Shown: piece after piece, positions 1-51,000 of the stretch
Numbering within the stretch: the first letter of the stretch is position 1
Layout of the letters: each line of letters begins with the position of its first letter
From: Deuterostichococcus epilithicus
Lineage: Eukaryota > Chlorophyta > Trebouxiophyceae > Prasiolales > Stichococcaceae
Length of the DNA stretch: 64,000 bases
Direction: 5' to 3'
NCBI GenBank assembly: GCA_033439295.1
Contig: JAVTLE010000016.1
Location: 1,426,001 to 1,490,000, forward strand
The notes under the pieces: generated by a model
The model's database searches: none
Seen by the model: only the letters and a program-made list of their open reading frames with translations
Told to the model about the DNA's origin: nothing
Made by a program: the position numbers and the translations under genes

Positions 1-108
1 TGCATTTGTGGCGTATTAGCACAGGATGGCTTAGCAGTGCCGTGGACAACACATATACCCAAGTATCTATGCCAACTGGTTAACTCGGGGCTTGGCCTCG
101 ACTCGTAG

Positions 109-1189: not shown

Positions 1190-4100
1190 TTAAGTCTCCA
1201 GCAGCTGTGCCAGCAGCGGGTCAGCCGCGGCGCCGGCCGGCAGCGCCTGCAGCCAGCCATGGCCCGACATGAGGCCCAGAAGGTGGCCGAACAGCGGCAC
1301 GCTGGCCAGCGTGGCCGCCGAGCCGACCAGCACCAGCTTGGCACGGGCGCGCGTGACGGCGACATTCACGCGGCGCCAGTCTGCCAGCAGGCGCCCTGCC
1401 TCGCGGCCGGCGTTCGAGCGCACCAGCGACACCAGCACGCACTCCTTGTCCCGGCCCTGCCGATCAGCACAACGTCTGCTCAGCAGCCCCGGTGGTGGTG
1501 GGAATGCACCGCGCACAGCGCCACCGGCACACAAATGGCATGTAAATGGTGTAGTGAGCCTCCCAGCTGTGGAGGCAGCACAGCATGTTTGGCAGGGGCC
1601 TGTCCTGCCTGCACACACCCAGACCCGCCCACGTATCCGCATTGGCCATACAGGGCCACTTGAAGATGCAGTCACATGCCACACCTGGTACTTGTCGACG
1701 GTGAGCGCCTCCATGCCCTCCAGCCCCACCTTTTTCGCCGCCTTGGTCAGCAGTGCCACCTGCGAAGCACAACGCTCAGGCATCGATGCGCGCGATCCTG
1801 GTGCGAATGCCGGAGAGTTCGACGCGATCCGCGCTGCACCTCCAGAGGCCCTTCCATGCCCACCCCCAGCCCTCCTCACGAAGGCCGCCGAGTCTCGGCT
1901 GAGATGTGCGGAGTCGTCGCAGCACACACCTCGACGCCACTCTATTGCTGACTTGAAACTGCAATGGCACACAAGTATACACACCGACAGGATGGCGGTA
2001 GCTGGGTGTTCCACCCACACTGACCTGGGCCCGGTATGGAGAGATGGCGCCGATGTCAGCCACAGGCAAGCCACCAGCCACCAGCGCCGCCGCAATGCGC
2101 ACCAGAAGCGCCGCCTCGCCGCCGTTCGCCACGGTCTCTGCGGCAGCGGTCTCCGCCATGTCGCTGCAAGCATCGGTGTCCAGGAACACCGCGCGCCGCC
2201 GCGGGTCCAGCACCTGGCGGCAGCCACAGCGGAACAATGTCAGGCACTGTCCATTCGCAGTGAGGTCCTCATGCGACTGCAGGGTCCAGATGCTGAGGCG
2301 AGCACCCTCCTCACCTGCAGCTGCCATTGCCGGGCAAGATCACCTAAGCAATGCGGGGCAGCACCAGCTGCACTACTCCTGCAGGTGCGACTTCTATATG
2401 GACAATGACATGGTCGTATACAGATCTGCCGAAGAAAGGAAGCTGTGCGCAGCCCCACCCGGCGCAGCCAAGGCGGCAGACCGAGGCCGTCCAAGCCAGC
2501 GGACAGCCGCAGACCGCGGCCCGCGACAGCGGCGCTGCCCGCGGCGAGTGCGCCGCTGTACACTAGCGCGTTGGGAAGCGCCATGATGTCGGCAGCCATG
2601 CGATATTGCGCCCGCAGCGTCACCACCGCCTATAGACAGAAACAAAATTCCTTGACTCTGTGATGTGCTTCCCCGCATGCATACAGACGCCATGATGTCC
2701 GCCGCCACGCAGTGTTGCGCCCGCAGCGTCACCGCCTGCACGAAAGGCATTCTGTTTGGCGTGCGTTCAGACGCCTGAAGGCTCTTCTGGCGTGGACGAG
2801 CGGTAAGGCATTGTCCGGATCTATGCCAGCATTCACCCTTCATGACAGCGAAATTGTGCAGAAACTGCCACATGTCGTTGCCCAGGCTGCGGTGGAACTG
2901 CACAAGCGAGAGGCGGCAGGACAGCACGAAGTCAGAGGGCAGGGAGGCGCGCGAGGCGGAAGCGCGCACCTGGGGGTGGGCCTCGCACAGGCTGCGGAAC
3001 AGGGAGCGGCACAGGCCGCCCGCCTCCGCCGCCGGGTTGGTCACCAGCGGCGGCAGCTGGTAGTGGTCCCCCACCTGCACCCGGAACAGGATCGGATTTC
3101 GCGTAATCGCCAGACTGCAGGGGAATCTGCGGCATCGTAGCTGCAACTTCACACTCCATCTCGGCATGCTGGCTCTGCACATGGAGGCATGTAGCAAGCG
3201 CATCCGAACTACATGTGCATCCAGTGACGCCATGCCGGCACACTTCCGAACAAAGGCGATGATGGGAGTTTCAGGCCCAACAGAGCGAGCCGCTGGTTGC
3301 GCACCAGCACAAAGGCGCGGGCCTTGAGCAGCGGCGCGATGGTGGCTGGCAGCGTCATCTGACCCGCCTCATCCACAATGACCACGTCAAAGGTGTGGCG
3401 CTGCAGCAGCGGTGAGTTGACGCCTAGGCACGTGGCGCCCACCTGCGAGGCACAACAAATTCCAGGTATCAGCGTTCAGTAGGCAGCCAAGCGACCTGTA
3501 CCACTCAGAGGTCGCCCCAATGATGGCGTCTGCAACGGAAGCTGTACTCGGACCATACCCGAGTACCGCCGGCTGCAGAAGCTGCAAGCGCATGCAAACA
3601 CAGCTGCGCGGCTGAGCTGGCCAAGACACATGTCGGCAGCAGGACTGACGCTCGCACAATGACGGCCTGGCAGCGGGGTCGGCGTCAGATCCTGTGAACG
3701 CGCAGAAGCGCACCACGCCGGCGGAGCGGGCGAGGCCGCGCAGGCGCGCGACTGAGGTGTCGGGCCACAGGCCGCCGCCGGGCAGGCACTCCCGCAGAGC
3801 GGGCGCGATGGAGTCGGCGCGGCCGAGGCGCAGCACCGGCAGCCCGCTCGCCCGCAGCCGCACCAGGATGTTGTCGACCCCGCTGCAGCGCAGCACACGT
3901 GAAAACGGTCAGTACGAACTTCGTGGACGGCTCACTTCGCTGAGGCAGGGCCAGCGCCTTGGCCGCAGGGTCGCGCCAGCGGCGCGAGCCGCAGACGTAC
4001 GACTGCAGAGCGCCCTGCTCGCCACGCAATCTGATCATCAACGACCCCTGTTGCCAGATAGTCACCAAAGCCCTCACAGCACCTCACAGCACTGGTCACC

Positions 4101-4888
4101 ACCTGCCAGCCGCTTGCTGCAGCACCAGCAGGGCACCGCACCAGGGCAAAGCGGGCTCCCATGCCTCAATCGGGCGTCACCTGTTGGTGTAGGAGGTGAC
4201 GAGCACCGTCTTGCGGGCGTCCAGAAGGGCGCGCACGGCGGCGCAGATGACAGCCGTTTTGCCGGTGCCCGGCATGCCCAGCACCAGCGCATAGTCCCGT
4301 GCCGTGAGTATCCTGCGCACGCCAGGGTGAATGGGTATCTGTGTCCAGCAGCATGGGATGCTCGGCTGTTTGAAGGACACTAGAGATACTGTCTCAAGCG
4401 CTCGCTTGGCCCTCGTAATACAGCAGTCTATTGCAAATGCTGGCGTGGCATTCGCACAAGGAGCTGGCAAGCTGCATATCTAATATTACCGGGAAGAAAC
4501 ACAACACTACCAACAGTATTGGTAAAGATGCAGACCTGTGGACGGCGGTGCGCTGGCCATCGTTGAGGCCGTCATCCGCCACGACGCCTTGCTCCGGACC
4601 TGCCGCCGCCGCTGCTCCGCCGCCCTGGCCGCCGCCCAGCTGGGGCCTGCCGCGCTGCGAAGCCGGCTGTGTCGGCGGCTGCTGCGTCGTGCGCTGCCTG
4701 CCGGTTCCTGCTGCCTGCGTCGCTGCAGCAGTCCGAGCGTCGGGGATTTGCCCATAGGGCGCTGCCGGCAGCGCGGCAAAGGGAGCTCGCAACGTCGCAT
4801 CCAGTTTGCGGCCGACGAACTTCTGCGGCGCCGCGCCGCCGCCGTTGGGCTGCCGCGGGGCGCCGCCGGCGCTGTTGGCTCCACCGCC

Positions 4889-4925
<37 letters not shown>

Positions 4926-7900
4926 GCGGCAGCGTCCGAGCCTGGCGCCGCGTCCTCAGCGAGGTCGTCTTCGTCCAACTCCTCCATCTCGGCAGCCTGG
5001 GAATGGCGCATGGCGCCCGTCGGCTGCGACGCAATGCGCGGCGGCACCAGCGCCACGATCAGCGACGACAGGTGCCGGGCGCGGCGGCTCTGCGTGTGTG
5101 TGTTATACCAGCGTCAACAACCGTCATAGCTCCTCAGTCATACGAATTGTAATAATCACTGCTGAGTTGAGACATGCACAGGGTGATGCATCAGCTGCTG
5201 CAGCCTGGCACAAGCTCATGCTGTGAAATAGTGTTTGTGGTCCTGCTTGGATCAGTGCTGTACGTGTAGCAATGCACTTTGACAAGAATAAATATGAAAA
5301 CATAAAACCTCCGAGGGCTGGAGTGGGCAGCGCACATGAAAATATCAAGAACATTGTCAGGCAGGAGGCAGTCCTGCGAGTGCGAAGCCACTCACGGTGC
5401 CGGCAAGCTCGACGAGGGCGCCGCGAAGGCGCGAGAACACAGACGCCACATCATCCCGATCCACGCGCCATCGCACGCCCGGCGCGCTGAGCCCGCCGCC
5501 CGCGCCCGCGAGCATGCCTGCCGCCTGCAACACGGGTTCGTGTCCGTTTGTGGCAGGGCCATCTCTGCCGAAATTACCGGACGAAAACCGGGTTCCCAAC
5601 GATGTCTTCAGCGTGTGACCGACCTGATGCGCCTGCTGCACAGCACCTCTGGCTTGCCAGGGCCAGCGTCGGCACTCCGCTCACAGTGCTTTTCCATAAG
5701 GCCCCACAGCCGCTCGCACCTGTGCCGGCGCATCGGCGAGCGAGGCGCGCAGGGGCCGCTGCAGCGACAGCGTCACGCCACTGGCATCGCAGGCCTGCAC
5801 CAGGCCCCGCGCAACGGCCGGCTGCGGGCGCCGCCCCGGTACAGCCTCCAGACTGAGAACTACGAGCTCCCCCTCATTGAAGCCCGCCTGCACCACAGCC
5901 GCCTGCGGCGGTGGTAAACGAAGGCAAGCCACTTCACTTGCTTTTCACATGCTTGCCGACCGCAGTGCTTTTCGGGATGAGACTGCTCTGCTCACTCCTG
6001 CATGAATTCTTCCGGCAGTGTCTGAGTGTTTCAGGACGGTTTTAAAGAAGTTGTCATTGTCAGCCTTGGCGTACCTGCTGCGTCTGTGTGGACGCGGCCA
6101 ACGCCGGAGCTCGCAGTGATGCCGCCGTGGCGAAAGTGTACACGAAGGCGCCGGGCGCGTCGCCGGGCGCCTGGGCCGTCAGCACGAGGTCCGCAATGCA
6201 GCCGCCCCGCGACTGCCGCTGCTCGCCTGCTCCACCAGATGGGCCCATCAGGGTGTCAGGGAGTAGGTTAGGAGCGTGCAGCCAAGGTGAGGGAAAATCA
6301 GGTTGCTGTGATATAGACAAGAATACCTTAACGTGTTTTAAGAACAGAGTACTCATCGCTGTCCACCTGACAGACGCCGGCTGTCAGCGCGCCCGGGCGG
6401 ACGAATGCACCAGCAAAGGTGCTTGCTGCTGACGAGACGGCTGAGGTTGCTGCACCCTGCTGCACCTCACGGGTGCCAGATGTCGGCTCGGCGGGCTGCG
6501 GAGCTGCCCTCTTACCAAATGATGCACTGGTGCTTGCACTAGCTGCTCCACATTCCAGCTGGCATCACTGTTCACCTGACAGGCGCCAGATGTCGGCGCG
6601 GCGGGCCACGGAACCGCCCTCCTCCAGATCCAGCAGCCGGTGCCAGTGCGAGAAGAAGGCCGCGTCACCTGGGCCGAGGTGGCCCGCCTGCAACTGAAAC
6701 GCCGGGCCCATGCCCGCGCTGTCAGAGGTGCCGCCCTCCAGCGCCTGTCGGATGCACATATGAGTCGTTGACTGAGCCACTGGCATATGCCCTCGAAATC
6801 TCTGGTAGGCCCTCCGTTCCCGTGCTGTTAATTGTTTGCGCATGTTTGTGCTGACGATCAGAGGTTCAGAAGTTTGGAATTGCCTGCACCAAGGCGCATT
6901 TCATTGCTCATGTTGCCGGAGACGCCTTGCCAAGTTTGTCAGCCGGAGGTGCCGGGTGACGAGGAGGAGGGAGGCGCGCACCTTGTGGGCGACGGCGCAG
7001 GTGGTGAGCGCGAAGCAGCGGGAGCAGCCGCGGGGACTGGGGTCGCGCAGCATCGGCGGCAGCGTGCCGGCCGCGAGGTGCGCCACCAGGCCATTGCGCA
7101 GCACCATCAGCGACGCCACCTCGCCGGGGCTGTTGACCACCGCCTCTGGCTCCTGCAGAGCAGCAGGGCAGCTGCTGCAGCAATGTGCCTCCAACAAAGT
7201 GGATTGGTGCTTGAGACGAGGGTGCAGAGGAACATGTTTCCTCAAGCCCGGTGATGGTGTCTTGACAGCCATGGGTACAGCCCTGCAGGTGTCCCGTGCA
7301 AGACGAAGAGCAGGACACTGGTGGCCAACACCGCACCGGCTGGTTGAGATACCACAGCAAGCCCAGGTCTGTGGCCACCCCATAGCGTTCACGTAGCAGC
7401 AGCAGGTACAGCGCCACCTACATCCGTGCAGCACATGGCCTGAATGTGCTGATTTTGTGTTAGTGGTACCCAGTGGAGTGGGTATCTGGGTGGGTATTGT
7501 TGAGAGCTTTGTTTATCGGGCCAGTAGCCCTGCGATTCCCTGTGCGTCGAGGGGCGCGCACAAGATCGACTGCCGCTTCATCAGCATGCTGCCGGCAGGG
7601 CATCGCATACACTGGATCGATCCGGCCTGGTGGACCTCACCTGGGCGCGGTGGCTGTGGTGGGGGCGGCCGGTCTTGAACTCGAAGGGCGCCAGCGCCTG
7701 CTGCACGGGCGTTGCCAGCGGCTGCTGCTGCCAGCGCTGCTGCTGCTGCTGCTGCCCGGCCTGCCAGGGGTGCCGCTGCTGATGGTGCCCTGGGCCGTTC
7801 TGCTGCTGCTGTTGTCCGTGCTGCTGCTGCTGCTGCTGCTCATTCTGCCTGTGCTGCAGCCCGGCCAGCAAGGCACTGCTCTGCTGCACGCCTGCCCGCC

Positions 7901-10900
7901 CACCCTGGATCCAGTTCTGCATGCCAGGCGGCGGCTGCTGCGGCTGCGGCGCCGCTGACATGCCGATGCGCAGCGAGGCATCGATGTTGCCCTTCAGCCC
8001 GAGGCGCGGTGCCCACACCGACTCCTCAATGTCCACTACCTCCTGTTGGGCAGAAGTCGAACACAAAGGCGTTCAGGTGCGGAAGGGGCCGGTGCTGCCT
8101 TGCAGTTGGTGGGTCCTGAAGGAGGCACTGCCACAGCGGGCAGGAGCAGATCGTGTGACCATTGCGACGGCACCCACTGTAGGATGCTACACATCAGGCA
8201 GATAGATCTGCGGCCTACCGCAGATGCCGGCGCTGCGAACAGTACTCGTACTTCCTCTCGACTTTAGCCAGGCAAACAGTGCAGTTTATACAGCTCGCCA
8301 TGGAGGCTATCCTTCGGGGCCGGAGGATCGACTGTCGAGGCCTCACCTGGATGCACAGCGCCTTGCTGGTCTGGCCGCCAAAGCCAGGCCCCATGGACAC
8401 CATTGCCTGCGGCTGCGGCTGCACGAAGGTGCGCAGCCAGTTGGCCATCGCTGGTGCGGCCTCCTCGACTTTGGCTGCCGCCTGGAACTCGTCCATGCCC
8501 GCCTGCGGGCCCGCGTGATGAAGCGTTTAAAGCTACCAATCCCCCCGAAATCCGTCCAGCCGGCGCCTCTCTCGGCAAAAATCGAAAGAATCGAACAGCA
8601 TGGATCCGCGACCATCGTAATGCCTGTCCAGCAAACACCATCACCTGGCTGTCTGCTGGTAGCCGGCCATACCATCAGGGAGAGCGCACCTCCAGGAGCT
8701 TGCTGGCGGCAGCCTCGGCGATGGGTCTCGCCCGTGCCACGAGCGCCTCCTCACTGGTAATGCACTCCGTCAGCGCGGCCTGCGCGAGCAAACACAGAGA
8801 GTACATGGCCGATCTGGCTCTGGATGCGCTTCCAAGGGAGTCTGCCAGGAAGAATCTGCTGGCAGAAGCTCGAGGGCACGGACCGGCAGCAGGCGGTCAG
8901 GCTGGGTGCCGCTCACAGCAGCAAGCCTGTCCGAGCTGCTGTGCTGAGGTCGCAGTCACAATCCGGCTCGCATGACCGCAAGATCCGACACGCCTCTCAC
9001 CTGCAGCAGCTCGTGCAGCAGGGTGCCGCTGACGGCGGCGGCGTTGGTTGTCCCGCCGCCGTAGCGCTCCTCCAGCACCGCCTTGCGCTGGCAGCCGAGC
9101 GCGCCGGCGATACGCGTGCCTGCACTCGGCAACATTCGCTGGTGGGTGCACCAGGGGTGCCGGCGCCAGGCCATCAGGACATGTCGAACAGCCCGCACAT
9201 CCGGCGAAGGCGACGAGGCGCCCCACCAGGAGGGCCGCAAGCGGGTTCACTCACCGGACAGCAGGATGTCGGGGTGGAGGATGAGGAGGCCCTCAGAATG
9301 CGTCAGGCGCACGTGCGCCGCTCCGTCGCTGCCCGGCTCCAGGGCCGGCACTATCAAGTGCACCGGGTCGCCCGGCGCCGCAGGCGTCCCATCCCAGCTG
9401 TCCTGCAGGTGCGCGACCACCTCCCCGCCCTGCACACGCGATCGGCAGCCAAATCAGAGTATCATCATTACTCTCAAACTTACTTCATTGCGTCGGAGGC
9501 GGTCGGAGGCGCCGCTTTCGGAGGCTGGCGGATTTTCCGAGACTGGCTGTGCTGGCGCAGACGCCGCAGGGGTGCAACGCTGCATGTCAGTCGAATGCTA
9601 GGATGAGTCCCGAGCTGCTTCAGTATGTCAGACACGATCCTTATGCAAAGGCCTTTCGGCACAGGCATGATCGCCTCGACATGTAGCATGCCCACAGCAC
9701 TCGATGCTGCCAGCAGACATCGTGGAGTGGGCCAGCAGTAAAGAGCAATCGCGTGCCGTTGCCTCGTTGAGCAGGCGCAGCCGCGTCTCCTGCGGCCCGT
9801 GCTCCACCTCCAGCACCACGTGCAGCAGCTGCTCTGGCGGCGGCTGCGGCTGCGCCAGCCTGATCACAGCAACGACCAGGACCAATCTCGCCATGCTCTC
9901 GTGAGGTGCTACGTGACATTGGTGTATCGTGCGTATGGACCGAGCCGCATGGACTGAGCTGCATGGACCGAGCGACAGACGACGATGGGCATCTGCAGCC
10001 TGACTGGATAAATGCAGAATGCAGTGTGGAGGCACCCTTGCCTGTCGGGCACGACAGTGCCAGCTGCACACACGGCCTTCAAGGCCTCGGCCTGCAATGC
10101 AGGTAAGCTGATCAGATGACAAACTCGCCTGGCAGTTTCTCGCGGCAAACGACAGCTGCTTTCGGGCTGTCATACACCAGCCTGTATGGGCCATAGAACT
10201 GCAAGCCACGTCGTGTGTTGTGCAGTTCGGCTGACAGCACAGCATGCGCATTTCCCTCCGCCCCACTGCTGATGCTGACCACAGGATGCACTTCCACCTT
10301 TGGAAGATTCCCACCTGCCGCTCAATGGCTTCCACCTTGGCGAGCAGCTCCGTCTCGCCGTCGCTGTCCGAGAACATGCCCGCCCACGGCTGCGCCGCAG
10401 CCGGCTGCGGCGGCTGCTGATACGCTTGCGCCGGCGGTGCCTGTTGGCGAGGTTTTGGCGCCGGCTCGGCGCCAGCCCGATGCTGACGCTGCTGGACTGG
10501 CGCTGGCGCTGCTGCTGGCGGTCGCTGACCAATCGAGTCGGACGGCTGCGGCTGCTGCGGGTGCCTGCCAGCTAGCGCGTCCGGATGCGCGCCGCCTGGG
10601 GCGGTGCGCGGCAGCGCAGCGACCGGCAGCGCCTGTGGCCCCCCAACCTGCGGTGGCAGCGGGCAGCGACGCTGCTGCTGCTGCTGCTGCTGCTGCTGGG
10701 GGCCCGGCTGCGCATTGCCGCCCCGGGCGGCCAGAGTATACGCCCCTGGGTGCGAGGCTGTGCGCTGCTGGCCGATGGGAGCGACTGCGGGCGCGCTTGC
10801 TGCGCCAGGCGCCGTGGGTGCAGCGGCAGGGGCAGACTGCATCGTGCGAGCTCGGCTGGCTGCCAGTGCTGCTTCCTCCACTGCCGCCAGGAGCGCGTCA

Positions 10901-21490: not shown

Positions 21491-28577
<7,087 letters not shown>

Positions 28578-31906: not shown

Positions 31907-34900
31907 TCAGCGGCTGGAGGGGCCAGCGCCGCCCGATGGGCCTGCCTGGTCGGCGGTGGTGGACAGGTCTGCAGCGACCGCCTGCCAAACGCCAGCAGCG
32001 CGCGCATGGAAGGCGTGCTGCACTGTCGCCAGGCCGCCCAGCATGCGCGTAAAGTCCGCCACCCTCGTGGCCTGCCACCGCTGCAGCTCCTGCGCGGCAG
32101 CAGCGCCCGCAGGTGTCGTAGTCAGGACGTGTCAGCGCTAAGTGGGATGATTCGCCAGGCGGGCTGCCCTCGGCATGGCGGTGACTGCACATGTCGCCGC
32201 GCAGCCACAGTGCCCTCGTGACGGGGCCGCCGGCACGCCAGCATCAAGGGGATCTCGATCCCAAGACAGCGAGCCGGTGCTCGCGGAACCTGCCAGCGAC
32301 ATGCGCCAGGCAATGCCGGCGCGCAGCCAGGCACTGCCACACCCCCCCCCGCGGCTGGGGATCATTGGCGGTCTGTCGCTGAAAGCCACATCGCAGGCGA
32401 TTCCAGACCGGTGGACTGCACCTCGAGGTTGCGGTCGCGGACGCGCTCGTACTCGGCCTGTGCGGCGACGCCGGCCTCCTGCAGCGCCTTCACCTCCTCC
32501 GACAGCGCCTGCGCCTTGCGCGTCTTGCCGTAGTGCGTGCCGTACATCTGCAGGCGGCAGCAGCAGCATGGTCGGACACGAAACGGCCTTGCTGGGACGG
32601 GACGGGGCATCTAGATAAGGCTTTAGCTCGAGAGTTCGGCTCTGCATGTGACCATGTTGCAGCTGGCCAGCAGATAAGAATGCTGCTTCCCACCGAAGCA
32701 ACCCGAGGATGCATCCTGCCGGTGTGCGGGCACCGGAGACATGCCTGCAGCCGCTCACGTGCTGAATGCAATAGGGCGCCAACCAGGAGTTCAGACGCTG
32801 GTCCGCTGCTCCCGGCAGCACGGAACTCCCCGCTCTGCAGAGGAAGCGGGGAGCACTGCAGCGCCTGCGGCTGGAAAGCAGCACTCTAGCAGACCCAGTG
32901 CATCACGGTCCTCAAGGAGGGACACAGAATCGAATGGTTCGGGGGATCGCACCTTGGAGCCCTCTGCCTCCAGCTGCGCAACGGAGTCGGCCTTGGCATC
33001 AGCCTCGTCCCGCAGCGCCTGCATGCTCAGCAGCGCCTCCTCCCGCTGCCGCAGCGCCTGCGGAGTGCATCGGAGGTGTGGTGGCGCTGTGTTCACAGCA
33101 AGGAAGGCGGCCTTCCAGCACGAAGGCTTGCAGTGTGGGCGGTGCCTGGTTTGGCAGCAGCCCCCCGAGTTGACCACTGTCCCCTGCACGGGCTGAGGAT
33201 GCTCTGGCGGGAAGGTCTGGGTCGGGTTCCTGATGCGCATGATCAGTGTCTAGCGGGTCGCTGCAGAACCTTTCGGTCGTGCACGTGCGCACGCATCGTC
33301 ATCACCTTGCCGGCGGCGGGCGCCATAGCCAGCGCTTCGTGCAGCGGCCCCAGCGCGTCTGTCACCGGCCCGGCAGCCGCCTTGGCCACCCGCGCCACCA
33401 CCACCGCAGCCTGTCAAGTGGCCAATGCAGACGCAGATTAAGCGAGCAGTCCCCTGAAGGAAGGCAGTCCCCAAGAGCAGTCCCGCAGCAGTCCCTGCGG
33501 TTTTTATTTGTCAGCCTCGTGCACACTCTGCACACACAGGGCCAGCGTGCCCACAAGGAGTGCAGTGTGGCACCACAAACCTTGCCAGCCTTGATAGCGC
33601 GGGCAGCCAGAGCGGCATTCGCGGCGCCTGCCGGCGTGTAGCGCCCCGGTCTGCCAGGCCCGTCCTCGTCCTGCTGTCCGACAGCAGCCGCACTTCAGCC
33701 TTCGATATACCAATGCAGCATCCGTCAAGCCGGTTTTGTGCGCACTGCAGCACCTTGCCAGGCGGGGTACCCAAAGTGCAGTAGGCAGCTGTGGGCAGCA
33801 GCAACTCTCGACACGCTTGGTGGGCGCGTTCTGATGTAAACAGTGCGCTTCCTGTGAAGGCTCGAGAAAGCATGCGCCACCTGGAAGCGGCCCAGGCGGA
33901 TGAGCGACATGCCGACATCGCCGGTGCGGGCGCCGGCGTCCTCGAATGCCAGCGCCAGGTTCTCGGCACGCCGCGAGGCGTCCGCCAGCACCGCACTCCA
34001 CTCCTCCAGCCGCTCCTTCTTCGCCTGCGGACAATCGAGTCATCGAGCTGGGGCAGTTTTGACACAAGGGTATGAAGCCGACGGCCGTTTCACCAGCACC
34101 GGCTGCCAATCCTCCATTCCTTTTCCTTTAACGCCGTTCCTCCAGCCAATCCCTTGTGGCCTGTGGACGACCCACACGAACTCAAATTTTGGTTGCAGTT
34201 GATGACACAGCCGAGTGAACGTGTGCGTGCGCCATAGGCAGCCTGTAGGCTACCCGCTGCAGAACTCTTCCTCCCGCTTCCGGATGAACACGCCTTTGAC
34301 CAAGCAAGCATCCGGCTTGCTCGCTCCCGGCCCTGGACGCATGCAGCCCTGCCTTGCCAAGGAGCCGATCGGAGGGGCCGTGCAGACACGCTGCCCACCA
34401 GGAGGTCGAGCTCGGCCTCGGAGGGCGGCGGGTGGTGCTTCATGCTGGTGGTCTGCTCCTTGAAGCGCCGCAGCAGGTCCCCCGTCGCACGCGTTGACTG
34501 CGCCGCCTCCGCTGCCGTCGGCACTGCCGGCTCCGTGCCTGAGCACGGAAAGGAAGCGGGTGTGGCTCATCGGCAGGCAGCGCAGCAGGACCCAGTTCAG
34601 CGGCTCCGCTCCTTCGCCGGGCAGTTGTCGCGAGCGCCTCCCGCACAAGACTTTCCACTGGCTCTTTCGTTTGCTGCCTGCAGTCTTTGAGCGCGCTCAC
34701 TGACGTGGGTAGATCCTCACTAACGCCAAATATCGTCAAACTGAGAAAAAACCGAGGGCAGGACATCTCGGGGCCGACCTAGGAGCTGGCGAGGGAGGCG
34801 GTGGAGGCCGTCCAGCATGCTGCCGGTCGCCGGCTGCAGGTGGGCCCACTCCGGGTCGCCGCCCAGCTGCCCCTCCTTTTGCAGGAACAGCAGCAGTTCC

Positions 34901-37028
34901 TGCGCAAGGCAAGGCAGTGGATCGGCGCGCGAACACGCTTTCATCTGCGACTTCACACGACCTGGCTGCCCCTTCCTTCGCAGGATCAGCCGCAGGTCCT
35001 GCGGGCGGGCGCGTTGGCTGCAGCTCAGCACCATCGTGTAAACACCACACCATGTCGCGCCCTGATTGCGCACGAGTAGCAGCACCGCCTCGTCTGCCGT
35101 TGCTTGCACTGCCACCGTGCTGCACTGCCACGGCCGCGCCCAAAAGCACCCACCTGGCTGTGGCCGATGACTGGGTGCGCCGACAGGCGGCCCAGCCACG
35201 CCTGCAGCGCGGCGCAGCGCGCCGCCACGAACTCCGAGTCTGGCACCTGCACAAGGTGCCACAGCATTTGTGAACGTCCTCATGGTACGTGTGCAGATGG
35301 ACGCTCGGACAACGCAGGATGTGCCACAGCAGCCCAATGCATCTGTGGTTTGGAGCGAAACCCCGGTGACCAACTTGTCCCTTGGCTGACGCATGTCGGC
35401 TCGTCAGGATGAGTTTGAAGTGGGACATGAGACCTCAGTGCAAGAGGTGAAAGTGAGCACAGCACCTGCGCCTCCAGCGGATTGGGCTGTTTCTCGGGAC
35501 GCGGCGGCAGAAAATAGCCGCGGTGCGAAGCCTTCAGCAGATCCGCCAGGCTCTGCGAGCAGCAGGGTGGAGTTCTGTTGCTGTGCAAAGCTCGATTCGT
35601 CACAGTGCAGTCCTGGGTAGAAGGTGACAATGCGCACGACTGATGGGGTGAACTACAGATGCTCCCAAAGCCCTGATCGACTTGCAGCATTACCCAAGCT
35701 TGCCGCGCTGTTTGTATATTTTGCCAAGGGCCCTCGCAGCAGTCCTTCTCACCACGAAGTCCCGGAAGCGACGGCGCACGGAGGTGTGGCCGCCGGCGGC
35801 CGGATCGAACGAGTCGACACGGTACAGCACATAGCCACCCTTCATGCCGGGGAATAGGCCGCCCTCCACCTTCTTGATGGGGTCGCCCACCGTGATGCGC
35901 CGCTGCGATGGCGGCGCCGGCTGTGGCCTGTGTGAATCCAGTGTTGTTCTGGGCGAGTCTGGATCACGATTCCCCAGCAGAAGGAAAGCTTTGCAGGTGG
36001 GTGACCTCACAGATTGTGCGCCGCTAATCCAACTCGCAGACCGGGCGGTCGAGTGCGCACAATGGCAGATGCGCAATCGGCGCTAGGCGGACCTGGGGGC
36101 GTCTCCCCTGCTGGCCCGCTGCGGCGAGGGGGCTTCTGCCGTGCCGCCGGCGCCGCTGCCGTCTGGCCCCCGCTGCCGCTGGCTCTGCTGCTGCAGGTGC
36201 GGCGCGTCCTCCGGCCGCCTCAGGAAGGCGTCATCCGCGTCGCCGCCTTCCTGCTCGCCGTCCTGCGCGCTGCCGAAGGCCCGGCTGCCGTTGCGGGCGT
36301 AGTCGTCCGTCAGCAGCTGCCCATAGCTGGCAAAGGTGTCGATGCGCGTCGTGTCATCGTCCAGCGGCACCTCCGCGTCGGAGCCGTCGGCCGAGGCGGC
36401 GGCTGCAGGTCCCCACAGCGGGTCCGCACCTCCGCCGCCGCCCTGCAGCCGTGGGAGGACAGTTGTTGAAGCATGCCAATGACGATGCCGGTGGGTTTGT
36501 GTTGTGCAGCTGACAGCAAGATGACTTCAGTGGGACGTGCAGCGCGTGTGACTGCAGTCTGGGCATTCTCATTTTCCCAAATTCTGGCACAACATGCCGG
36601 CTGGATGTCTCACCGACAGCGGGTCGTCGCCGTCAAAGACGCTCTGCGCGAGCGGGTCGTCGTCCAGCGTGACGGACGAGTCTATGCGGGCATCGAAGGC
36701 AAATCGCGAGCGGCACGGCGCGTCCTCGTCCTCCTGTGCTCACACAACAAGGTGTCGGCAGCTTTGCACACGCCAGACGTCCGATGGTGCGTGCACGATT
36801 CCAGGCTCTGGAATGCAGTTCCCACCTCCACTGCAGGTGACTCGATGTGCTGCGGCACCTCCTCAAAGAGCGCTATATCCTCTTCCTGCGGCACGAGGGT
36901 GAGGAAACATTGATGCCTCGGAATCGGCAGGCAAGCATGCAGGCTGAGCAGGATCACACACAACAGGTGCGGACCCCGTCGTTGGGATTTAGAAACTGCA
37001 GCGGATCCTGCACGCCATCCTCGTTCAT
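31907..37028 (-). CDS. Sorting nexin, PX-BAR type (SNX1/SNX2/Vps5-like)
   Basis: Predicted 650 residues in 15 exons: 37028-36975, 36885-36826, 36733-36614, 36442-36093, 35927-35753, 35552-35466, 35246-35154, 34899-34779, 34538-34399, 34024-33881, 33670-33581, 33410-33306, 33057-32953, 32547-32422, 32089-31907. All phases agree. Residues 1-195 are acidic and disordered (DDPLAQSVFDGDDPLS, VPLDDDTTRIDTF). The PX domain spans about 200-320: RRITVGDPIKKVEGG, YVLYRVDSF, then RRRFRDFVSLADLL with the phosphoinositide-binding Arg region, and FVAARCAALQAWLGRLSAHP. The C-terminal about 280 residues are a helical Vps5/BAR domain with ENLALAFEDAG, LGPLHEALAM and ALSEEVKALQEAG. The family bends endosomal membrane and works with the retromer. 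The intron before exon 8 holds a copy of that exon's edge. Confidence 0.9.
34960..35008 (-). repeat. Intronic copy of the acceptor and 5' edge of sorting nexin exon 8
   Basis: Exon 8 starts at 34899 with GAACTGCTGCTGTTCCTGC and encodes ELLLFLQKEGQLGG. About 109 bp upstream in gene sense, after its own CAG, lies GACCTGCGGCTGATCCTGC, which would read DLRLILRRKGQPG before a GT. The copy keeps about 70% identity over 45 bp. Using it as an extra exon would break phase, so it is probably a decayed duplicate. Confidence 0.85.
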
Positions 37029-40600: not shown

Positions 40601-41879
40601 TCGACACAGATAGGAGCGGCTCCATCACAGTGGAGGAGCTGAAGAAGGGGCTGCGGGCACAGGGCAGCGTCGTCAGCGAGGAGGAGCTCGCCACCCTGGT
40701 GAGGACCCTATTGCAACATGCAGAAACATGCATACTGGCAAGCACCCCGCTTCTCTGCGAGGTCTGCTGCAGGGCGTGCTTCTGGCAAACTTGATGCGGT
40801 TTCTGTGGGCCGCGGAGAATTCACAAAGGAAAGAAACGGGCCTATAGTGCATGAACTTGCTCCTGTCTGCACAATGCAGCCGCGCCTTTCCCCAGCAGGT
40901 CTGCGCGCAGCCATGCACAGAGCGCCGGCGTTCTCCAGCCGAGCTGAAACTTTGAGCCTCGCTGCGACCTGAACCGATGCCGAGTCCAGATCTGATGCCG
41001 AGCCCATCAGAGTGCCCAGATCAGAGTGCCGAGAACTGATGCCGAGCCCAGATCAAAGCCGTTTTCAGAGAGAGATATTTCTGTCGAGTTGGACATTATC
41101 ACACTCACGGGCGGAGCTTGCACCAGTGCGGCACAACTTCTTGCCCGCGACCCCACAGCGAATGTCTCTAAACTATTCCGAACCTGTCGCGCCCAGATGG
41201 AGCGGCTGGACGCGGACCACAGCGGCACGATCGACTACGAGGAGTTCATCGCGGGCACCATCAACATGAGCGCGCTGCAGAACAGCGACAACCTGGCGAA
41301 CGTCTTTGAGGAGTTTGACACCGACGGCAGCGGCTTCCTTACGCGCGATGAGCTGGAGGCCGCCCTGAAGGTGGCCCCCCTGCAAGTTGAACTCAGCTTC
41401 ACACATCCAGGAATCTCCTGCCTGCTCTGCATCTGAGTGCGTCTGCTTTTCTGGGCAACAGCTGCTACCAGTTGCTGCTATGAGTCGCTGTGGGTGCATC
41501 ACACAGCCGGGCATCATGCACCACACCGAGCGTCGTGCTGCATGGCATCGGTGAAACTGCAAGTGGCCGTGACACTTGTGAGGGATGCAAAGCAACCGTT
41601 AATAGTCATCCGACCCTGGCTACTGACCCGTGATCGGCAAGCGGGCTGAAAGGCTCCCCCTCCTGCACACAGAAATACGGCGGCGAGGTGCACATGGACA
41701 TCGAGCAGATCCTGCAGGAGGTGGACCAGGATGGCGACGGCCGCATCGACTACGACGAGTTCTGTGCGATGATGGCGTCCGGCAACGAGGAGGTGCTGTC
41801 CTCGAAGTCGACGCTGCGGCGTGCCAAGGTCGCAGAGAAGGTGGTGGGCGCCCAGCCCAATGGCGGCGGCCCCTTCTGA
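37691..41879 (+). CDS. Calcium-dependent protein kinase (CDPK/CPK)
   Basis: Predicted 540 residues in 12 exons: 37691-37825, 37926-37979, 38219-38346, 38547-38664, 38799-38860, 38984-39061, 39212-39356, 39578-39787, 40027-40236, 40597-40698, 41197-41370, 41673-41879. All phases agree. MGCSSS at the start is a consensus N-myristoylation and palmitoylation signal, so membrane anchoring is likely. The kinase (about 66-326) has [27 protein letters not shown] and APEV. The autoinhibitory junction follows (about 327-380, [15 protein letters not shown]). Four canonical EF hands come next: [36 protein letters not shown] and [12 protein letters not shown]. All catalytic and Ca2+-binding positions are intact. 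The protein should be a Ca2+-activated Ser/Thr kinase. The intron after exon 8 begins with GC. Confidence 0.97.
40975..41058. repeat. Minisatellite-like repeat in CDPK intron 10
   Basis: Interleaved copies of TGATGCCGAG(T/C)CC and (C/T)CAGA(T/G)TG(C)CC with CAGATC repeat across about 85 bp of the intron between exons 40597-40698 and 41197-41370. No exon similarity is seen. Confidence 0.75.
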
Positions 41880-43050: not shown

Positions 43051-43582
43051 CTCTTGGACGCCGCTTGTCTGGCGAGGCGGATCCCGCTGTGCCCCAGCCA
43101 ACTCGAGCTAGGGAATGCTGCAAATGTTTCCAGTGGCTGCTCGTCGTTCTGTCAGCTTGATCGACAAAGCACGCCGCGCACCTGCCAGCGGACGTGCAGA
43201 GTGATCAACAGCGTGCAAGGCTGTGAATCTGCTCAACTGCAACTGTACCACCACCACCAATCCCCCGCTAGTTCCAGCAGAGCGCCTGTGGGGCCTGCAT
43301 GGCCAAGAGTCCCCGGAGGACCACCTCAGCCCAGCAGCAGGCACCTGGACCCCCATGAATGGAGCACACCCCTCTGCAAGGCATGCCCATTGCAGGAGAA
43401 ATGCAGGCCCTGTGCTGACTGTGCACCCTTCCGGTAGAGGTGGTTTGCCAGTGCGCAGTCGCCGCATTTCCACGCACTGTGTGTCAACACACACACCATC
43501 ACAATATCCAAGCTGCTAGCACACACATCGGACTGCTCTGGTCGCTTCAAAAGTCGCAAGGCGGGTGGCTCGGCCTGCAAAA
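43051..43582. other. Intergenic region upstream of citrate synthase
   Basis: This 532-bp stretch lies between tandem genes and holds the small gene's 3' UTR and the citrate synthase promoter. No gene or clear motif is seen. Confidence 0.45.
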
Positions 43583-46500
43583 ATGGCGACTGGGCCTGCC
43601 CAGCAGCGCCTGGCAGCGCTGTCACGCCACCTTGGCACATTCACAACCGATGAGGAAGCCAGCTTGCGGATGCAGGGCACCAAAGCTACAGGTGACCGTC
43701 ATGTTTGGATTCAACCCCTGACTGCACTGTGCATGTTCGCGTCCGTGCTTCATCCCTTCGCACTCCTCGACCGCAGGCGAGGAGCGACCGACACCGCTGG
43801 GAGGTCCCGGCACGCTGAGCGTGACGGACAACAGGACGGGGAAAAACTACGAGCTGAAGCTGGATGACCACGGTCTGCTCAAGGCCAACGACCTGAAGCA
43901 AATTGTGGCGGGCGGCGACGGCCTCGGCCTGCGCACTTACGACCCTGGGTGAGCCACCTTCATGCTCGCGGAGTCGCCTGTACGCACCATCCCGGTCTGC
44001 GCCCCGACACGCCGCACTGACTGTGGCAGAGCGTCAGTTGCGCAAATTCGTGCCATCCTCCACTGCACATGATCCTGCAGTAAGAATCGTTGGTTGCTAG
44101 TGCTTAGCATTCAACACGCATGATGCAGACTTTTCAACACCTCCACCGTCAAGTCCACGATCTCCTTCATCGACGGCGACAAAGGCATCCTGCGCTACCG
44201 CGGCTACCCCATCGAGCAGCTGGCCGAGAAGTCCAGCTTCCTTGAGGTAAACGCATGCAGTGATGCACCTCCCTCTGCATGCGCCTGCCGACGCCGTATA
44301 GCTGATACACTGGTACAGCTGCTTGCCGGATGCTGGCTATCCGATCTGCTGCACCGTAGCGCTGCTGCCCTGCTGCATGCTGATTCGCAGCCTGCAGGTG
44401 CAAATGCGTCTGTCAACGACCATTCCAGGATGCATTGAAGCTTGCAAGAGGTTTCTCAACGCTTCATCGACATGTTGTGCGCAGGTGGCGTACCTGCTGG
44501 TGTACGGCCACCTGCCGTTGCCGAAGGAGCTGGCGCGGTGGGAAGAGGCCGTTATGCGCCACTCCGCGGTGCCTGTCACAGTGGTGCGTTCTCTGAAGAA
44601 CCTGAGGGCATGCCGCCAATGCATCAGACATGACTGGGCTGATGACTCTAGAGCAGCTGGGATGCACAGCCCCCTGACGGTGGCACTATCATCCACATTG
44701 CGCCGCCAAATTATCTTTGCTGTTTTTCAAATTGCCTTGCGCTGCAGTTACTCTGTTCATCTATTGTGACCGATGCTGTTTTGTTGACAGGAAGATGTAT
44801 GTCGGCGCTGCCGCACGTCCCCCACTTCATGGGCACCTTGCAGCTCCCTTGCCATGTCAAGATGCGTGCTCCTCGACTTGATTGGCACCTCCACTTCACA
44901 GGAGAACGTGGTGTCGGCGCTGCCGCACGACTCCCACTTCATGGGCATCCTGCTGGCGGAGATCTCCGCGCTGTCTACATGCCACCCGGAGCAGAACCCG
45001 GCGCTCGCGGGGCAGAACATCTACCAGGACAAGGAGATCGTCGACAAGCAGATCCTGCGCCTCATAGGTGCACGGTGATACTGCTTGTGGGCATGTCCAT
45101 GGGTCTGTTGCGAGCTCGACTCTGCCCGTCACGGCCCTAAAAGGCGCTGATACTCGCTATGTCCTTCACGATTGGGCGAAAGTACTGCATTACGGTGCAG
45201 CACCGTTATCGCGCGTCTAGCAACCCCCGCACTCGAGCCCTGGGCTGCCCAGGCGCCGCCGCCGCTGCAGCGCGCGCGCGCCACCATCAGCACGGCTCCA
45301 GGCATAACTCGGTCTGCCATCGCTGAGCAGCACAAACGGAAGTTTTACCCTCTCTGCCATGCAACAGGCAAGGCGCCGGCAATGGCGGCGCTGGCCTACC
45401 ATCGCGCCACGGGGCGCCGCGCGGCGCCGCCCAACCAGCGGCTGTCCTACGGCGAGAACTTCCTGTACATGCTGGACGCGGGCGCCAAGGGCTCCTACAA
45501 GCCCAACCCCAAGCTGGCCCGGGCCGTGGAGGTCCTCTTCATCCTCCACGCGGAGCACGAGATGAACTGCTCCACCGCCGCCGTCAGGTGGGTGGGCAGC
45601 GGGCCCGGTCGATTGTGCATTTCTTTGTGCACACCTTGCTGGACTCAAGCTCGGCAATGTGGCGGCAGCCGCAGCCTCGGCTGTCTGCATCTCCTTGCAG
45701 CCTGCCCACAATGCTGTGTCCAGTGCTCGGGGAGCCCGCTGCAATTCCACGGCACCATACTGCGGCCAGCCCTGGCGTTCACCTGTGATAATCTGAAGCC
45801 CAGACCTGACACCCAGGACCTCCACTCTGATGTTCCGACTGGCGTGGCAATGCCAACTCGTGCGATACCCCGCAGGCACCTGGCCAGCAGCGGCGTGGAC
45901 GTGTACAGCGCCGTCGGCGGCGGCGTGGGCGCGCTGTACGGCCCGCTGCACGGCGGCGCCAACGAGGCGGTGCTGCGCATGCTGGAGCGCATCGGCAGTG
46001 TCGAAAAGATTCCATCCTTCCTGGAGGGCGTGAAAAACCGCAAGGAGAAGATGTTTGGCTTCGGCCACCGGTGCGGGGTTCCCGCACTCGCTGTGACGCA
46101 CCCGTGTCAGTGCTGCAGGGTCCTGCTGTGCTGCTTGAATGCGCAGCTAACTAGCATGCATGCATCCATTGGCCCAGTCCTTTGCCGCATCAGCCTGCGG
46201 GTCCGACATGTGGACGGCATGTGGAGGTAATCCATCCTTGCATCTGGCCCGTGTCCAGTGTCGCAGCAGCCCACTCATCTCGTTCTTTTCGTCAATCACT
46301 GCAGGGTGTACAAGAACTTCGACCCGCGCGCCAAGATCATCCGGGAGATCGCGGACGAGGTGTTCCAGATCACGGGGCGGGACCCGCTGATTGACGTGGC
46401 CATCGAGCTGGAGAAGGCCGCCCGCGCCGACGACTTCTTCAAGAAGCGCAACCTGTACCCTAACGTGGACTTCTACTCGGGTGCGCTGGAGAACCCACAT

Positions 46501-47413: not shown

Positions 47414-48077
47414 AGTATCTGACGTTTGATTTGAAGGACGTTCGAATTGGGGCCTCGGCCGACTGACATCTGCCAGCGTGTCGTGCCGTGCCGATTTGGT
47501 CGTTTGCTTGCGGCCCTGCTGACGAGTCTGCCTTGTGTCCGCAGGCACAAACTGGACATAGTTGCAGTAAGGAGAAGATGCCGAGGCGACGTGATTGAGC
47601 GATATTCGACACGCGCTGTAGGCATCTCCAGCAGGCTGTCCGAGCTATACTGCGGCAACCTGCACACAGCTCCAATCAGTCGACATTGCTGCCATATTCT
47701 TTAGGGGAGGCGTTTTAGGGTGTCGCAGCAGCTGCGACAGCCATTTTGGGTTCTCTAGGAGGGTTCATGAGTGCAGCATGTCAGCAATCGATCTGCGTTG
47801 CCAACATTGATTGCTCATGCAGGTGTGGCGCTGCCGCAAGCGGGCTCGAGTCTGCGATTTGACCTGTGGGAACAGGTTACATTGTCAAAAATATACATTT
47901 CAGAAACCAAAAGTGCACTTAGTGCACACAGCGATCAACTCGAATGCTCGCAAAATTGCTGTAGCATGTCAACGCACAGATGAAGATTGTACATCTCAGT
48001 ACAGTCTCCATGACCTCCCAACTGCCACTCTCCTCAAACGAATCGCGCAACATGACGACTCGAATGATCAACCAGTC
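47414..48077. other. Convergent intergenic region, citrate synthase / CtpA
   Basis: This 664-bp stretch holds the two 3' UTRs and possibly an alternative last citrate synthase exon near 47545-47560. It is otherwise AT-richer and without recognisable genes. Confidence 0.5.
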
Positions 48078-51000
48078 TCAATTCGAGGCATCAGCAGCCG
48101 ATGCGACGAGCACCGGCGCCACGATTGGGTCGTGCCCTTCGCTCAAGATGTCCAGCGCCTTCCTGAGGCAGCTGTCATTGTCGGCTGTCGGCGCGCCTGC
48201 ATGCGGGTAGTCGCTGCAGCTCACATCTGGCAGCAGCCCACCTGCTCGTCAGCAGTGCCTCGTCAGCTGCTCGGCTTGCTGCAGAAGCAGGAAAGGATTG
48301 TCAATAGAATAGCATCCGCACCATGGCACTGGCAACGAGCCTGCGGAAAAGGGGGTCTTCAGGGCCCACCTTCTCTCGAGATGTCGAAGCTGTGAGGCCC
48401 AAGGTACTTTGACACCGTCAGCTTCAGTCCGCCATCGCCGTGCACCGGAAAGTAGTACTGCAAATTTTGGCGACCAAATGCTCAGTTGCGGGAAGGTCCT
48501 TTCATACAGCCACCTGGGCTCTCGAGCAGAGCGACCTCAAACGGGTATCTTCTTCCAGACACTCACCTGCACGACTCCTTTCCCAAAAGTTTGCTCCCCG
48601 ATCAGCACGGCCCTGCGGCACGCGTACCACCAATGAGGGTGAATCATCGAGGACGCTTTGAAATTTGACCGCCCAGGGCCCTCACTGGTGATCAGGCAGG
48701 CGACCCTGAGCCGCATGCTCTGCCTCTTATGCAGCAGATGGCTGCGCTGCATTGCACGCACGACTCTGCGGCGATGTCCTGGCTCAGGACATGTGAAGGG
48801 GCCCTACCTGCCGTTGTCCCTCAGGGCGCCTGCCAGCACCTCGGACGCCGACGCCGTCGCCCGGTTTGCAATCAACATGACGGGCGCGTGACTCAGCGTG
48901 CCTGCGGATTAAGAAGCCAAGTCGGCGGGATCGAGAGATCGGTATTATGTGCGAGCAGCCTTCAGCTGGCCAGCAGAACCAGACGGCGCAGGGGGTTCAG
49001 AGTCGCCGCTTACCCGGCAGGTTCGTGAAGACCTCCTTCGACAGGTGCCCTGTCTGCAGCATGGCGACGCGGCAGGTCAGCTCTGAAGGGTATTTGCTGC
49101 TGTGCGCACGAGGCGCCTGTGTCCCTCGATCGGACGGCCAACCGTGCCAGCGTGCAACCAATGCAAGTCGCGATCAACGCGGAGCTCGGCAGGGGCCTGC
49201 GGACCTGGAAGGTGTTGTCGATGAAGCCGCCTGTGGTGCGAACCGTGGCCGCCACCGGGCAGTCGACGTCCAGCAGCAGCGACGCTATTGCGATGGCCTC
49301 CTCGAACACGCCGCCTGCGGGGCACCACATTGTATTTTACCAACCATTCTGCCGTCCCGTGTGCTTGCGGCACAATAAAAATGCGCGCAGAAACATCTGT
49401 GCCCCTGCTCCTTTAGGACGATGATGATGATGTTAAAGGCCTGGCAGGGCTCCGCGGTGATACAGTGTCTGGCTGCCGCTGCTAGCCTGCTGACCCCACC
49501 CTGACAGGACTGTCCAACTTATAAGCGTCATAGGTCGGCGCGACACCCCCTGTGCCCATCCAGCACCGCTACACGAAGCTAGTTTCTCCTATACTGTATT
49601 AGATTGAGAAACACATGTCAGGCACTCGTCACTCCACACCTGGATTGTTGCGCAGGTCAAGAATATAGGCGTCGACTCCGTCTACCTCGCCCAGCAGCAG
49701 TTCCTGCTGCACAGCGCGCCGCGTCTCCGAAGTGAAGTAGTGCACCCGTATGTATGCCGCCTCGCGCCCGTCCCCCAGCGGCAGTCGCGCCTGTGCAGCA
49801 CAACGCAGCTCCAACCTGAACTGCCCACTGACTTCCGTGACGACCACTGGTTTCCGTAACAACCGCCGCCGCTTTAGGGTGCAGTCCTAGAAAACAAGGC
49901 CATGCGCAGAGACTGGCCTGGCTGTGTGGCCATGCACTCCACACAGTCATGTCTGCCATTTTCCGAGATTCAGATGGCCTGCCAGCTGTCGACAATACCG
50001 ACTGTGTGCTGGTCCCAAGTTTGCCAAAACACAAGTTCCCATGGCTGACTCCATCCGCCAAGTCACCTGCTTGACGGGCGGCTGCAGCGGGCCCGCCAGA
50101 GGACACAAGTTGCTAGACCCGACCCCTGGCCTCCACACATCGGCGCACCAGAAATATTTAAGAGGTTCTTGTGCCTCACGTTTGTTGTGCACATGCGTCA
50201 CGGGCGGCTGCGGCAGGTTCCATGTTGACCAGCATTTGAAACCCGAGATCCTTCCAAGCCCTGACCCCCAGTACCTTCACGGCTGGGAATCCTTGCCAAG
50301 CCATGTTTCACACCTGCTTGGTGGGCGGCTGCGGCAGGGCGCGTCGCTCCAGCACCACGTGCCGCACGGCGCCGCTTGCGTCGGCGACCGCCAGGCCCAC
50401 CCGCGACCCTGCAGGGCCGCGCAGCAGCGCCGTCACCTCGTCCTTGGTCAGCCCGTTGCCCTCCACGTGGTAGTCGTCTGCGCGTGACGACCCGCCGTGA
50501 AAGTGAAAACTCTTGGCGAACAGCAACAGGTGGCGGCGGCAGGAGGCATCATCGGTGCAGCCGGCACGCTTCTTCCCCACTTTCGCTGGGGGTTGAGACA
50601 TGATACTGGTTGTGGACAGCGTCAGGCGGCAGCCGCCGGATCAGCGTGGCTCCGCATTCGGGCATCTCTCTGGACCAGCAAAGAAGCAACCCTGCTCCTG
50701 GAGATGCGGCAGTGCCACCGGTGCGCGCCTATCTGCAGGATGCGCTCGCCGCGCAGGATGCCTGCATACTCTGCTGGGCCCTCCGCAAGCGGCGCCGCCA
50801 CCGTCCAGCCGCCGTTGCTGCGGCGGCACGGTAGGAGCAGCATTACCGACAGCACGAGGTAGCCAGCAGCTTGGGTTCGTTCCAGCCGTCCCTGCTGCTC
50901 CCATTCACGAGCTGTCACCTGGGCATTCAAATCCGCACAAGCACAGTCGCAATCGCAGTCCTCAGCACTGACAGAATGGACCAGAAGGCACCTGGCGTGC

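Follow-up and report, generated by a model that had tools for sequence, protein, structure and literature searches.

We found that exon edges of the alga Deuterostichococcus epilithicus repeatedly have direct copies of themselves in the adjoining intron, which fall within a band of step sizes, in places form arrays, decay without codon constraint and retain splice sites. We consider it moderately likely that these copies are the relics of recurrent head-to-tail tandem duplications, with a unit mostly of about 90-155 bp. The potato RdRp gene already provides an example of a tandem duplication that crosses a splice junction; what is new here is the scale, the band and the decoy splice sites.

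Results

The window analysed is a stretch of 64,000 nucleotides (contig JAVTLE010000016.1, positions 1,426,001-1,490,000). It was scanned against itself along ungapped diagonals at offsets of 20-1500, with three dinucleotide shuffles as the control, in which the maximum score was 15.5. Once simple repeats were removed, the top matches were the first four of the clear cases listed in Table 1: diagonal 112 at 44800-44841 (score 32), diagonal 109 at 2579-2627 (31.5; 106 between splice sites), diagonals 110 at 6463-6511 (29) and 209 at 6354-6391 (23), and diagonal 99 at 34866-34904 (24). The S41 peptidase case lies on diagonals 247 (18), 121 (16) and 126 (15.5); since the 126 piece alone does not exceed the shuffle maximum, it was counted as a member of a three-copy set.

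Scan and alignment recovered all five clear exon-edge copies described in an earlier note on this DNA, and four genes are affected, as it had stated: a DNA2-like helicase (two cases), a PX-domain sorting nexin, citrate synthase and an S41 peptidase. Where the note had listed an offset of 109, the sole remaining case in range is that of the sorting-nexin gene, which stands as a case, with a step of 99 on realignment. A weak case placed at 1852-1918 was not supported (gapped score 19, p=0.11). The gene model calls two of the copies exons (2685-2735 and 50067-50081), so that the copy in use there is unproven. In citrate synthase, the duplicated stretch is present once in all three homologous proteins compared. 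A pair at the stop codon of a GH85 gene reached a gapped score of 47, whereas none of 500 shuffles scored above 24.

Table 1. Exon edges and their copies in the window (positions within the 64,000 nucleotides)
Feature	Position	Strand	Remarks
Acceptor-side exon start, DNA2-like gene (exon 2459-2629)	2579..2627	-	helicase domains AAA_11/AAA_12
Intron copy of DNA2-like exon start	2688..2736	-	86% identity over 49 bp, step 109; modelled small exon 2685-2735
Donor-side exon end, DNA2-like gene (exon 6576-6744)	6576..6621	-	gene model, alignment
First copy of DNA2-like exon end with donor	6466..6511	-	step 110; 83% over 46 bp
Second copy of DNA2-like exon end	6367..6391	-	209 from exon (110 + 99); 84% over 25 bp; middle copy test of the array p=0.003
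Acceptor-side exon start, PX-domain sorting-nexin gene (exon 34779-34899)	34866..34899	-	gene model, alignment
Copy of sorting-nexin exon start with AG	34965..34998	-	step 99; 82% over 34 bp
Acceptor-side exon start, citrate synthase (exon 44902-45067)	44912..44953	+	PF00285 in homologues
Intron copy of citrate synthase exon start	44800..44841	+	step 112 (111 between splice sites); 90% over 42 bp
Donor-side exon end, S41 peptidase gene (exon 50314-50477)	50311..50338	-	gene model, scan
First copy of S41 exon end	50202..50217	-	step 121; 16/16 bp
Second copy of S41 exon end with donor	50064..50091	-	247 from exon (86% over 28 bp), 126 from first copy (82%); 50067-50081 modelled as small exon
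GH85 (ENGase-like) gene 3' end and stop codon (last exon 56858-57086)	56858..56911	-	gene model
Downstream copy of GH85 gene end and stop codon	56770..56823	-	step 88-91; aligned block without splice site
Weak copy of DNA2-like donor-side exon end (9018-9039)	8901..8922	-	step 117, score 12

An ab initio gene model was made for 314 kb, consisting of the window and 25 stretches of 10 kb. Low-complexity segments were dropped throughout; leaving out exons below 30 bp and targets below 300 bp reduced the exon edges from 1,382 to 1,195. Thirty of 100 copy matches were set aside because the copy was predicted to be coding, five of 29 matches were removed as mirror images before events were counted (24 events), and the array-rich locus L018 was excluded from several counts (1,154 edges remain).

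A copy scoring at least 16 within 800 bp was present at 45 of the 1,195 exon edges, versus 0.4 per control set. Without L018, 52 of 1,154 edges had a direct intron copy (score at least 12) at 80-160 bp, while other introns gave 2 and inverted targets 4; at a score of at least 14 these numbers were 33, 0 and 1, respectively. Exon interiors matched in 3 of 390 cases, exon edges in 18 of 390. Chance was rejected as the source of the copies on the basis of the controls with other introns and inverted targets, the exon interiors and the dinucleotide shuffles. The observation made in the earlier note is confirmed in the 314 kb sample. The note's claims that both donor and acceptor sides are hit (20 acceptor and 13 donor events without L018) and that one process is recurrently at work were also supported, with exon-edge copies recurring outside the window. 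About 3-4.5% of exon edges outside L018 bear a relic (33 independent events or 52 edges out of 1,154). These events are clustered by gene (p=0.0008 without L018), and the GC3 of the affected genes is no different (p=0.45).

Single steps measure 89-154 bp, with a mean of 117 and one outlier each at 56, 66 and 161 bp. The narrow step proposed earlier was seen again on other contigs, in a band broader than the suggested 100-125 bp. Offsets of 85-155 hold 42 of the 64 matches found at offsets 20-320, and a middle copy was found for 11 of the 15 matches at 180-300 bp, which identifies double steps. The note's tie of the step to chromatin spacing is speculative; the offsets lack a 10-bp (helical) periodicity. 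A bias towards steps of 1 mod 3 (15 of 23 at a score of at least 16) fades over all 42 (p=0.22) and is probably due to chance.

In L018, alternate units 232-266 bp apart have common spacers, so pairs were copied whole. Outside this locus, intron-only repeats of 16-62 bp are present. Introns adjoining a copy have a median length of 350 bp (35 edges) versus 221 bp (1,160 edges), and are thus about one step longer; against introns of at least 200 bp only, the comparison median is 289.5 bp (p=0.03). No pair of at least 30 bp exceeded 93% identity, meaning that no recent event was caught.

Five of 24 events are homologous over their entire unit, as a simple tandem duplication would be; the remaining 19 have an unaligned gap of 17-99 bp between the copies, as expected from decay. 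This spacer (median 40 bp) shrinks as the aligned block grows (r=-0.92), and the exon part of the unit, 25-130 bp, is as random placement predicts. On the intron side, homology often fades no more than about 10 bp from the junction and is recognisable at p<0.05 in 8 of 29 pairs (5 of 23 outside L018). When a steady spread of ages was simulated, the intron side was clear in 57-62% of pairs, versus 10% observed, and even the simulation that fitted best, at 0.3 substitutions per site, left 20-29% of pairs without intron-side similarity, versus 48% observed. At 0.25 substitutions per site, simulated exon-edge pairs were detected in 66% of cases and intron-only pairs in 5%. A scan for non-exonic pairs gave four free-standing pairs within the band at a blast score of at least 28 and, likewise above expectation, seven pairs at 321-620 bp (2.25 expected). 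Start and stop edges had a band copy in 2 of 108 cases and control stop edges in 1 of 53, both being small numbers.

In copies not read as coding, mismatches are even across codon positions (48/339, 48/335 and 50/337). Pairs read as coding in both copies have a third-position excess (21/21/52), much of it contributed by L024, apparently a repeated protein; in one L018 pair, mismatches occur at third positions only (0/0/5). The splice dinucleotide is retained within 3 bp in 31 of 42 copies, compared with 144 of 420 random places, and 22 of the 42 still resemble true splice sites in score. Comparison of the 26 stretches revealed no repeat family and gave a single between-locus match, which was exonic. 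A viral_contigs scan yielded four loci.

Discussion

Our preferred reading is that the copies were left by repeated tandem duplication. A unit spanning a splice junction would produce two copies of the intron end, the splice site and the exon edge. The copy attached to the remaining exon would stay in use and constrained, and the intron copy would drift; exon edges would be conspicuous because one of the two copies remains constrained. Placement of the unit would be blind to splice sites, the step size may be set by mutation rather than by selection, and the site nearer the exon would win by exon definition. Arrays may arise by repeated events or by the duplication of an existing pair. Every event would add one step to the intron and plant a decoy splice site, and the extra edge, as in potato RdRp, may in some few genes have turned into a small exon and a new intron.

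Tandem duplication is supported by the exclusively direct orientation, with inverted targets at control level, and by the band, the double steps, the whole-unit events, the L018 spacers, the longer introns and the stop-codon pair. The varying exon part of the unit, the spacer that shrinks with block size, the even mismatches over codon positions, the retained splice dinucleotides and the simulated ease of detecting exon-edge pairs also speak for it. On the other hand, it is weakened by an intron-side loss above simulation, by the clustering in genes and by the lack of any pair above 93% identity, as well as by thin support away from splice sites, namely the four in-band pairs, next to seven pairs at 321-620 bp, and the two start/stop edges, next to one control edge.

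One might expect the band to be set by selection on splicing, with duplications of all sizes arising but, across a splice junction, a length of at least about 90 bp being needed to leave two sites that exon definition can distinguish; shorter ones would mis-splice and be lost, and longer ones would be mutationally rare. Just two single steps at exon edges fall below 85 bp (56 and 66) despite the short intron-only repeats, and with half of the copies scoring like true splice sites, confusion is a real cost. This account nevertheless leaves unexplained why steps end near 155 bp and recur beyond it solely as double steps. In addition, donor and acceptor sides behave alike, and the GH85 pair has the same step in an aligned block that holds no splice site. 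We regard selection as an unlikely source of the band.

It is more doubtful that a junction-targeted process, such as the repair of breaks at intermediates of transcription or splicing, copies the exon edge into the intron. The early fading of intron-side homology, its loss beyond simulation and the excess of edges over interiors would fit such targeting. However, since both intron copies drift, the intron side should lose more homology in any case, and whole-unit homology, the spacers within the L018 arrays and the GH85 pair argue against it. The exon edges that the earlier note describes as copied are not necessarily what is targeted, given the whole-unit events, the stop-codon pair with no splice site in its aligned block and the four non-exonic pairs.

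Could the copies be working alternative or mutually exclusive exons? The matches modelled as coding and the third-position L018 pair point this way, but L024 supplies much of the excess in both-coding pairs and the citrate synthase copy is missing from the three homologues. Tandem alternative exons would call for coding constraint on both copies, and the even mismatches in copies not read as coding, a count that leaves both-coding pairs outside, led us to disfavour them; we consider working exons highly improbable. If each intron had been born when an exon stretch carrying AGGT was duplicated in tandem, a recognised way of gaining introns (PMC3443670, PMC2891723), the step should equal intron length. 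Instead, steps of 89-147 bp occur in introns mostly of 230-850 bp, most events lying in introns two to seven times the step, and we rejected this origin as extremely improbable. Finally, an introner-like or other mobile element that inserts and duplicates its target would account for copies flanking a spacer, yet the only between-locus match among the 26 stretches is exonic, and we give this explanation practically no weight.

Returning to tandem duplication, we tentatively propose that a mutational process, present or past, makes tandem duplications whose length hardly varies (about 90-155 bp) and, by striking exon edges repeatedly, has been a major driver of intron lengthening, with decaying arrays of exon edges and decoys left behind. 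If true, introns here would partly be graveyards of their own exons, and the spliceosome would have to ignore decoys that look functional. The even step size is unusual, and the duplications may reveal one route of intron growth. Intron growth and the origin of cryptic splice sites have mostly been inferred from single cases, and this alga offers a measured step. With decoys that closely resemble genuine splice sites, its genome amounts to a natural experiment on spliceosomal choice between near-identical sites. It also bears on whether a repair process can favour a duplication length.

Duplications within genes, some of them across exon-intron boundaries, have already been described; to our knowledge, a preference for steps of around 117 bp was not reported there. 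In the potato RdRp gene, a tandem duplication crossed an intron-exon boundary (Ma, Lan and Niu 2016, PMC4974935). As in the alga, the unit covers both the 3' end of the intron and the beginning of the exon, and the copy inherits the acceptor and nearby signals. The potato gene is one recent case with a new intron and exon, whereas the alga has dozens of old, mostly inert copies with a common step; L003 and L018 are potato-like in the gene model. The Rogers model (PMC3443670, PMC2891723) also involves a small within-gene tandem duplication that copies splice-site sequence, but in that model the duplicated unit itself constitutes the intron, while the algal unit sits on the border of a longer intron that already existed. 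Fill-in of staggered breaks, a repair route, gives small head-to-tail duplications of limited size (PMC8355091), in which it resembles the alga; a link to the 90-155 bp size seen here would be hypothetical. Introners (Gozashti et al. 2022, PMC9860276) are, like the algal copies, a recurrent, genome-wide source of intron sequence; they form families whose elements resemble one another, and no such family was found in our algal sample.

Excess of copies at exon edges

The genome sampled comprises 46.8 Mb in 21 contigs, and 25 additional 10-kb stretches from 17 contigs, together with the window, gave 314 kb (about 0.7% of the genome; GC content of the sampled DNA, 62%). Exon edges are predicted throughout by our own two-strand gene model, trained without outside data, which returned 705 introns and 764 exons, of median length 219 and 111 bp respectively, with a donor consensus of about CAG/GTGCG and an acceptor consensus of about YGCAG/G. 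Among 8,000 candidates scored, the best-scoring relatives of the window's citrate synthase were a JGI sequence (90%) and an MMETSP transcript (88%), the first species-named one being Coccomyxa viridis (76%); the DNA therefore very probably comes from a green alga, putatively a trebouxiophyte.

We aligned up to 60 bp per exon edge to the adjoining 800 bp, with other introns as controls. A comparison of this kind, proposed in the earlier note, bore out an excess of copies, with 45 of 1,195 edges matched at a score of at least 16 against 0.4 in each control set. Without L018, an array-rich locus, copies at 80-160 bp were found for 52 of 1,154 edges, compared with 2 for control introns and 4 for inverted targets. 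For the same exons, edges gave 18/390 and interiors 3/390.

All five clear cases previously claimed in the window were confirmed (table); the weak case at 1852-1918 did not pass a shuffle test (p=0.11). The gene model calls two window copies exons (2685-2735 and 50067-50081).

Exon-edge copies in the window, and genes with their numbers of events
Gene	Location	Step (bp)	Events
DNA2-like helicase, first case	window	106-109	
DNA2-like helicase, second case	window	110 and 99	
PX-domain sorting nexin	window	99	
Citrate synthase	window	111-112	
S41 peptidase	window	121 and 126	
Chromodomain DNA methyltransferase	L018 263-9423		9
Cysteine-rich-repeat (GLG1-like) gene	L025 308-7983		6
SNF2 helicase	L012 74-9698		5
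RAD50-like gene	L023 1710-10000		4
DNA2-like gene	window 1190-14106		2

All 42 events are confined to 18 of 73 genes, a clustering beyond intron number even without L018 (p=0.0008). DNA or chromatin is the substrate of several event-rich genes' products. By eye, the L018 arrays hold three to six copies each; in one of them alternate units, 232-266 bp apart, have spacers in common, and pairs were therefore copied whole. The L018 pair 4813-4873 and 4946-5006 has five differences, all at third codon positions, unlike other copies, and from this pattern both members may be coding.

Step size

Before offsets were counted, 30 of 100 matches were dropped because the copy was predicted to be coding. 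Offsets of 85-155 bp hold 42 of the remaining 64 matches in the 20-320 bp range. The earlier note had proposed a single mechanism with a step of 100-125 bp; a recurrent band was indeed replicated outside the window, with matches in 14 of the 26 stretches, but it is wider than claimed, single steps spanning 89-154 bp (mean 117, standard deviation 18, score at least 13). The other matches lie at 56, 66 and 161 bp and in a hump above 180 bp. Since 11 of 15 matches at 180-300 bp (score at least 13) have a middle copy at half distance (p<0.05, uncorrected), this hump consists mostly of two steps. Step lengths are 1 mod 3 in 15/23 cases at a score of at least 16, a tendency that weakens over all 42 (p=0.22).

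Repeats of other kinds were also seen: short tandem copies within an intron (window 40971-41054, steps 44 and 62), intron-only repeats of 24-62 bp outside L018 (ungapped scan, steps up to 84 bp), a coding repeat arranged in tandem (about 102 bp, 34 codons) within one predicted exon region (L011 6413-7008), and a larger repeat, mostly non-exonic by prediction and outside the 90-155 bp class (L019 5961-6153 and 6332-6514; 73% alike over about 190 bp, offset 371).

Anatomy and decay of the copies

Homology in the 24 independent events has median limits of 10 bp into the intron and 63 bp into the exon, and its exon part measures 25 to 130 bp; in five events it extends over the whole unit. The intron part is detectable (p<0.05) in 8 of 29 pairs and clear in 3, compared with 57-62% predicted by simulation under a steady age spread. 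A single old age of about 0.3 substitutions per site matches the mean in simulation, but the fit is imperfect, as 48% of pairs lack intron-side similarity versus 20-29% simulated. Mismatches are even across codon positions in copies not called coding. The splice dinucleotide is retained in 31 of 42 copies, and 22 score inside the true-site range, which 5% of random places reach. Copy-bearing introns have a median of 350 bp versus 221 bp; set against introns of at least 200 bp, they are longer by 60 bp (p=0.03). L003 7118-7332 is a well-preserved case, in which the two copies share an identical stretch of about 23 bp of intron ahead of the AG and differ by 11% in their exon parts.

Discussion

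Recurrent tandem duplication followed by decay fits the pattern. A unit spanning a splice junction would yield a working exon edge and a spare edge in the intron, with constraint on the working edge only and the spare free to decay; decoy sites would be disregarded through exon definition, the splice site closer to the exon winning. Because the working edge is constrained, an exon-edge pair would stay visible longer than an intron-internal duplication (simulated detection at 0.25 substitutions per site, 66% versus 5% for intron-only pairs), and edges would therefore stand out without targeting. The cleanest sign of duplication without splice-site targeting is the 3' end of a GH85 gene, duplicated with its stop codon at a step of 88-91 in an aligned block that contains no splice site. 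Non-exonic pairs (blast score at least 28) number seven at 85-155 bp versus 0.25 expected, three adjoining known arrays and four remaining, none at 156-320 bp (0.75 expected) and 7 at 321-620 bp (2.25 expected). Start and stop edges match in-band in 2 of 108 cases, similar to splice edges (p=0.31), a weak test since control stop edges also give 1/53.

The size band is the odd feature: if duplications simply became rarer with length, they would not be expected to end near 155 bp and reappear solely as double steps. Splicing-related selection could account for its lower limit but hardly its upper one; fill-in of staggered breaks is a known source of small tandem duplications (PMC8355091). Given the gene clustering, and with no pair of at least 30 bp above 93% identity among those found, the duplication process may be old or episodic.

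We found no published genome, green algae included, described as carrying recurrent exon-edge relics with a fixed step; most subscription journals lay outside the search, making this weak evidence of absence. Tandem duplication across an intron-exon boundary is itself already known, and intron gain by tandem duplication is a recognised route (PMC3443670 and PMC2891723). In potato RdRp, according to PMC4974935, a tandem duplication over an intron-exon boundary inherited its splice signals. The L003 7118-7332 case resembles it, as our gene model calls both copies exons with an 84-bp intron between them.
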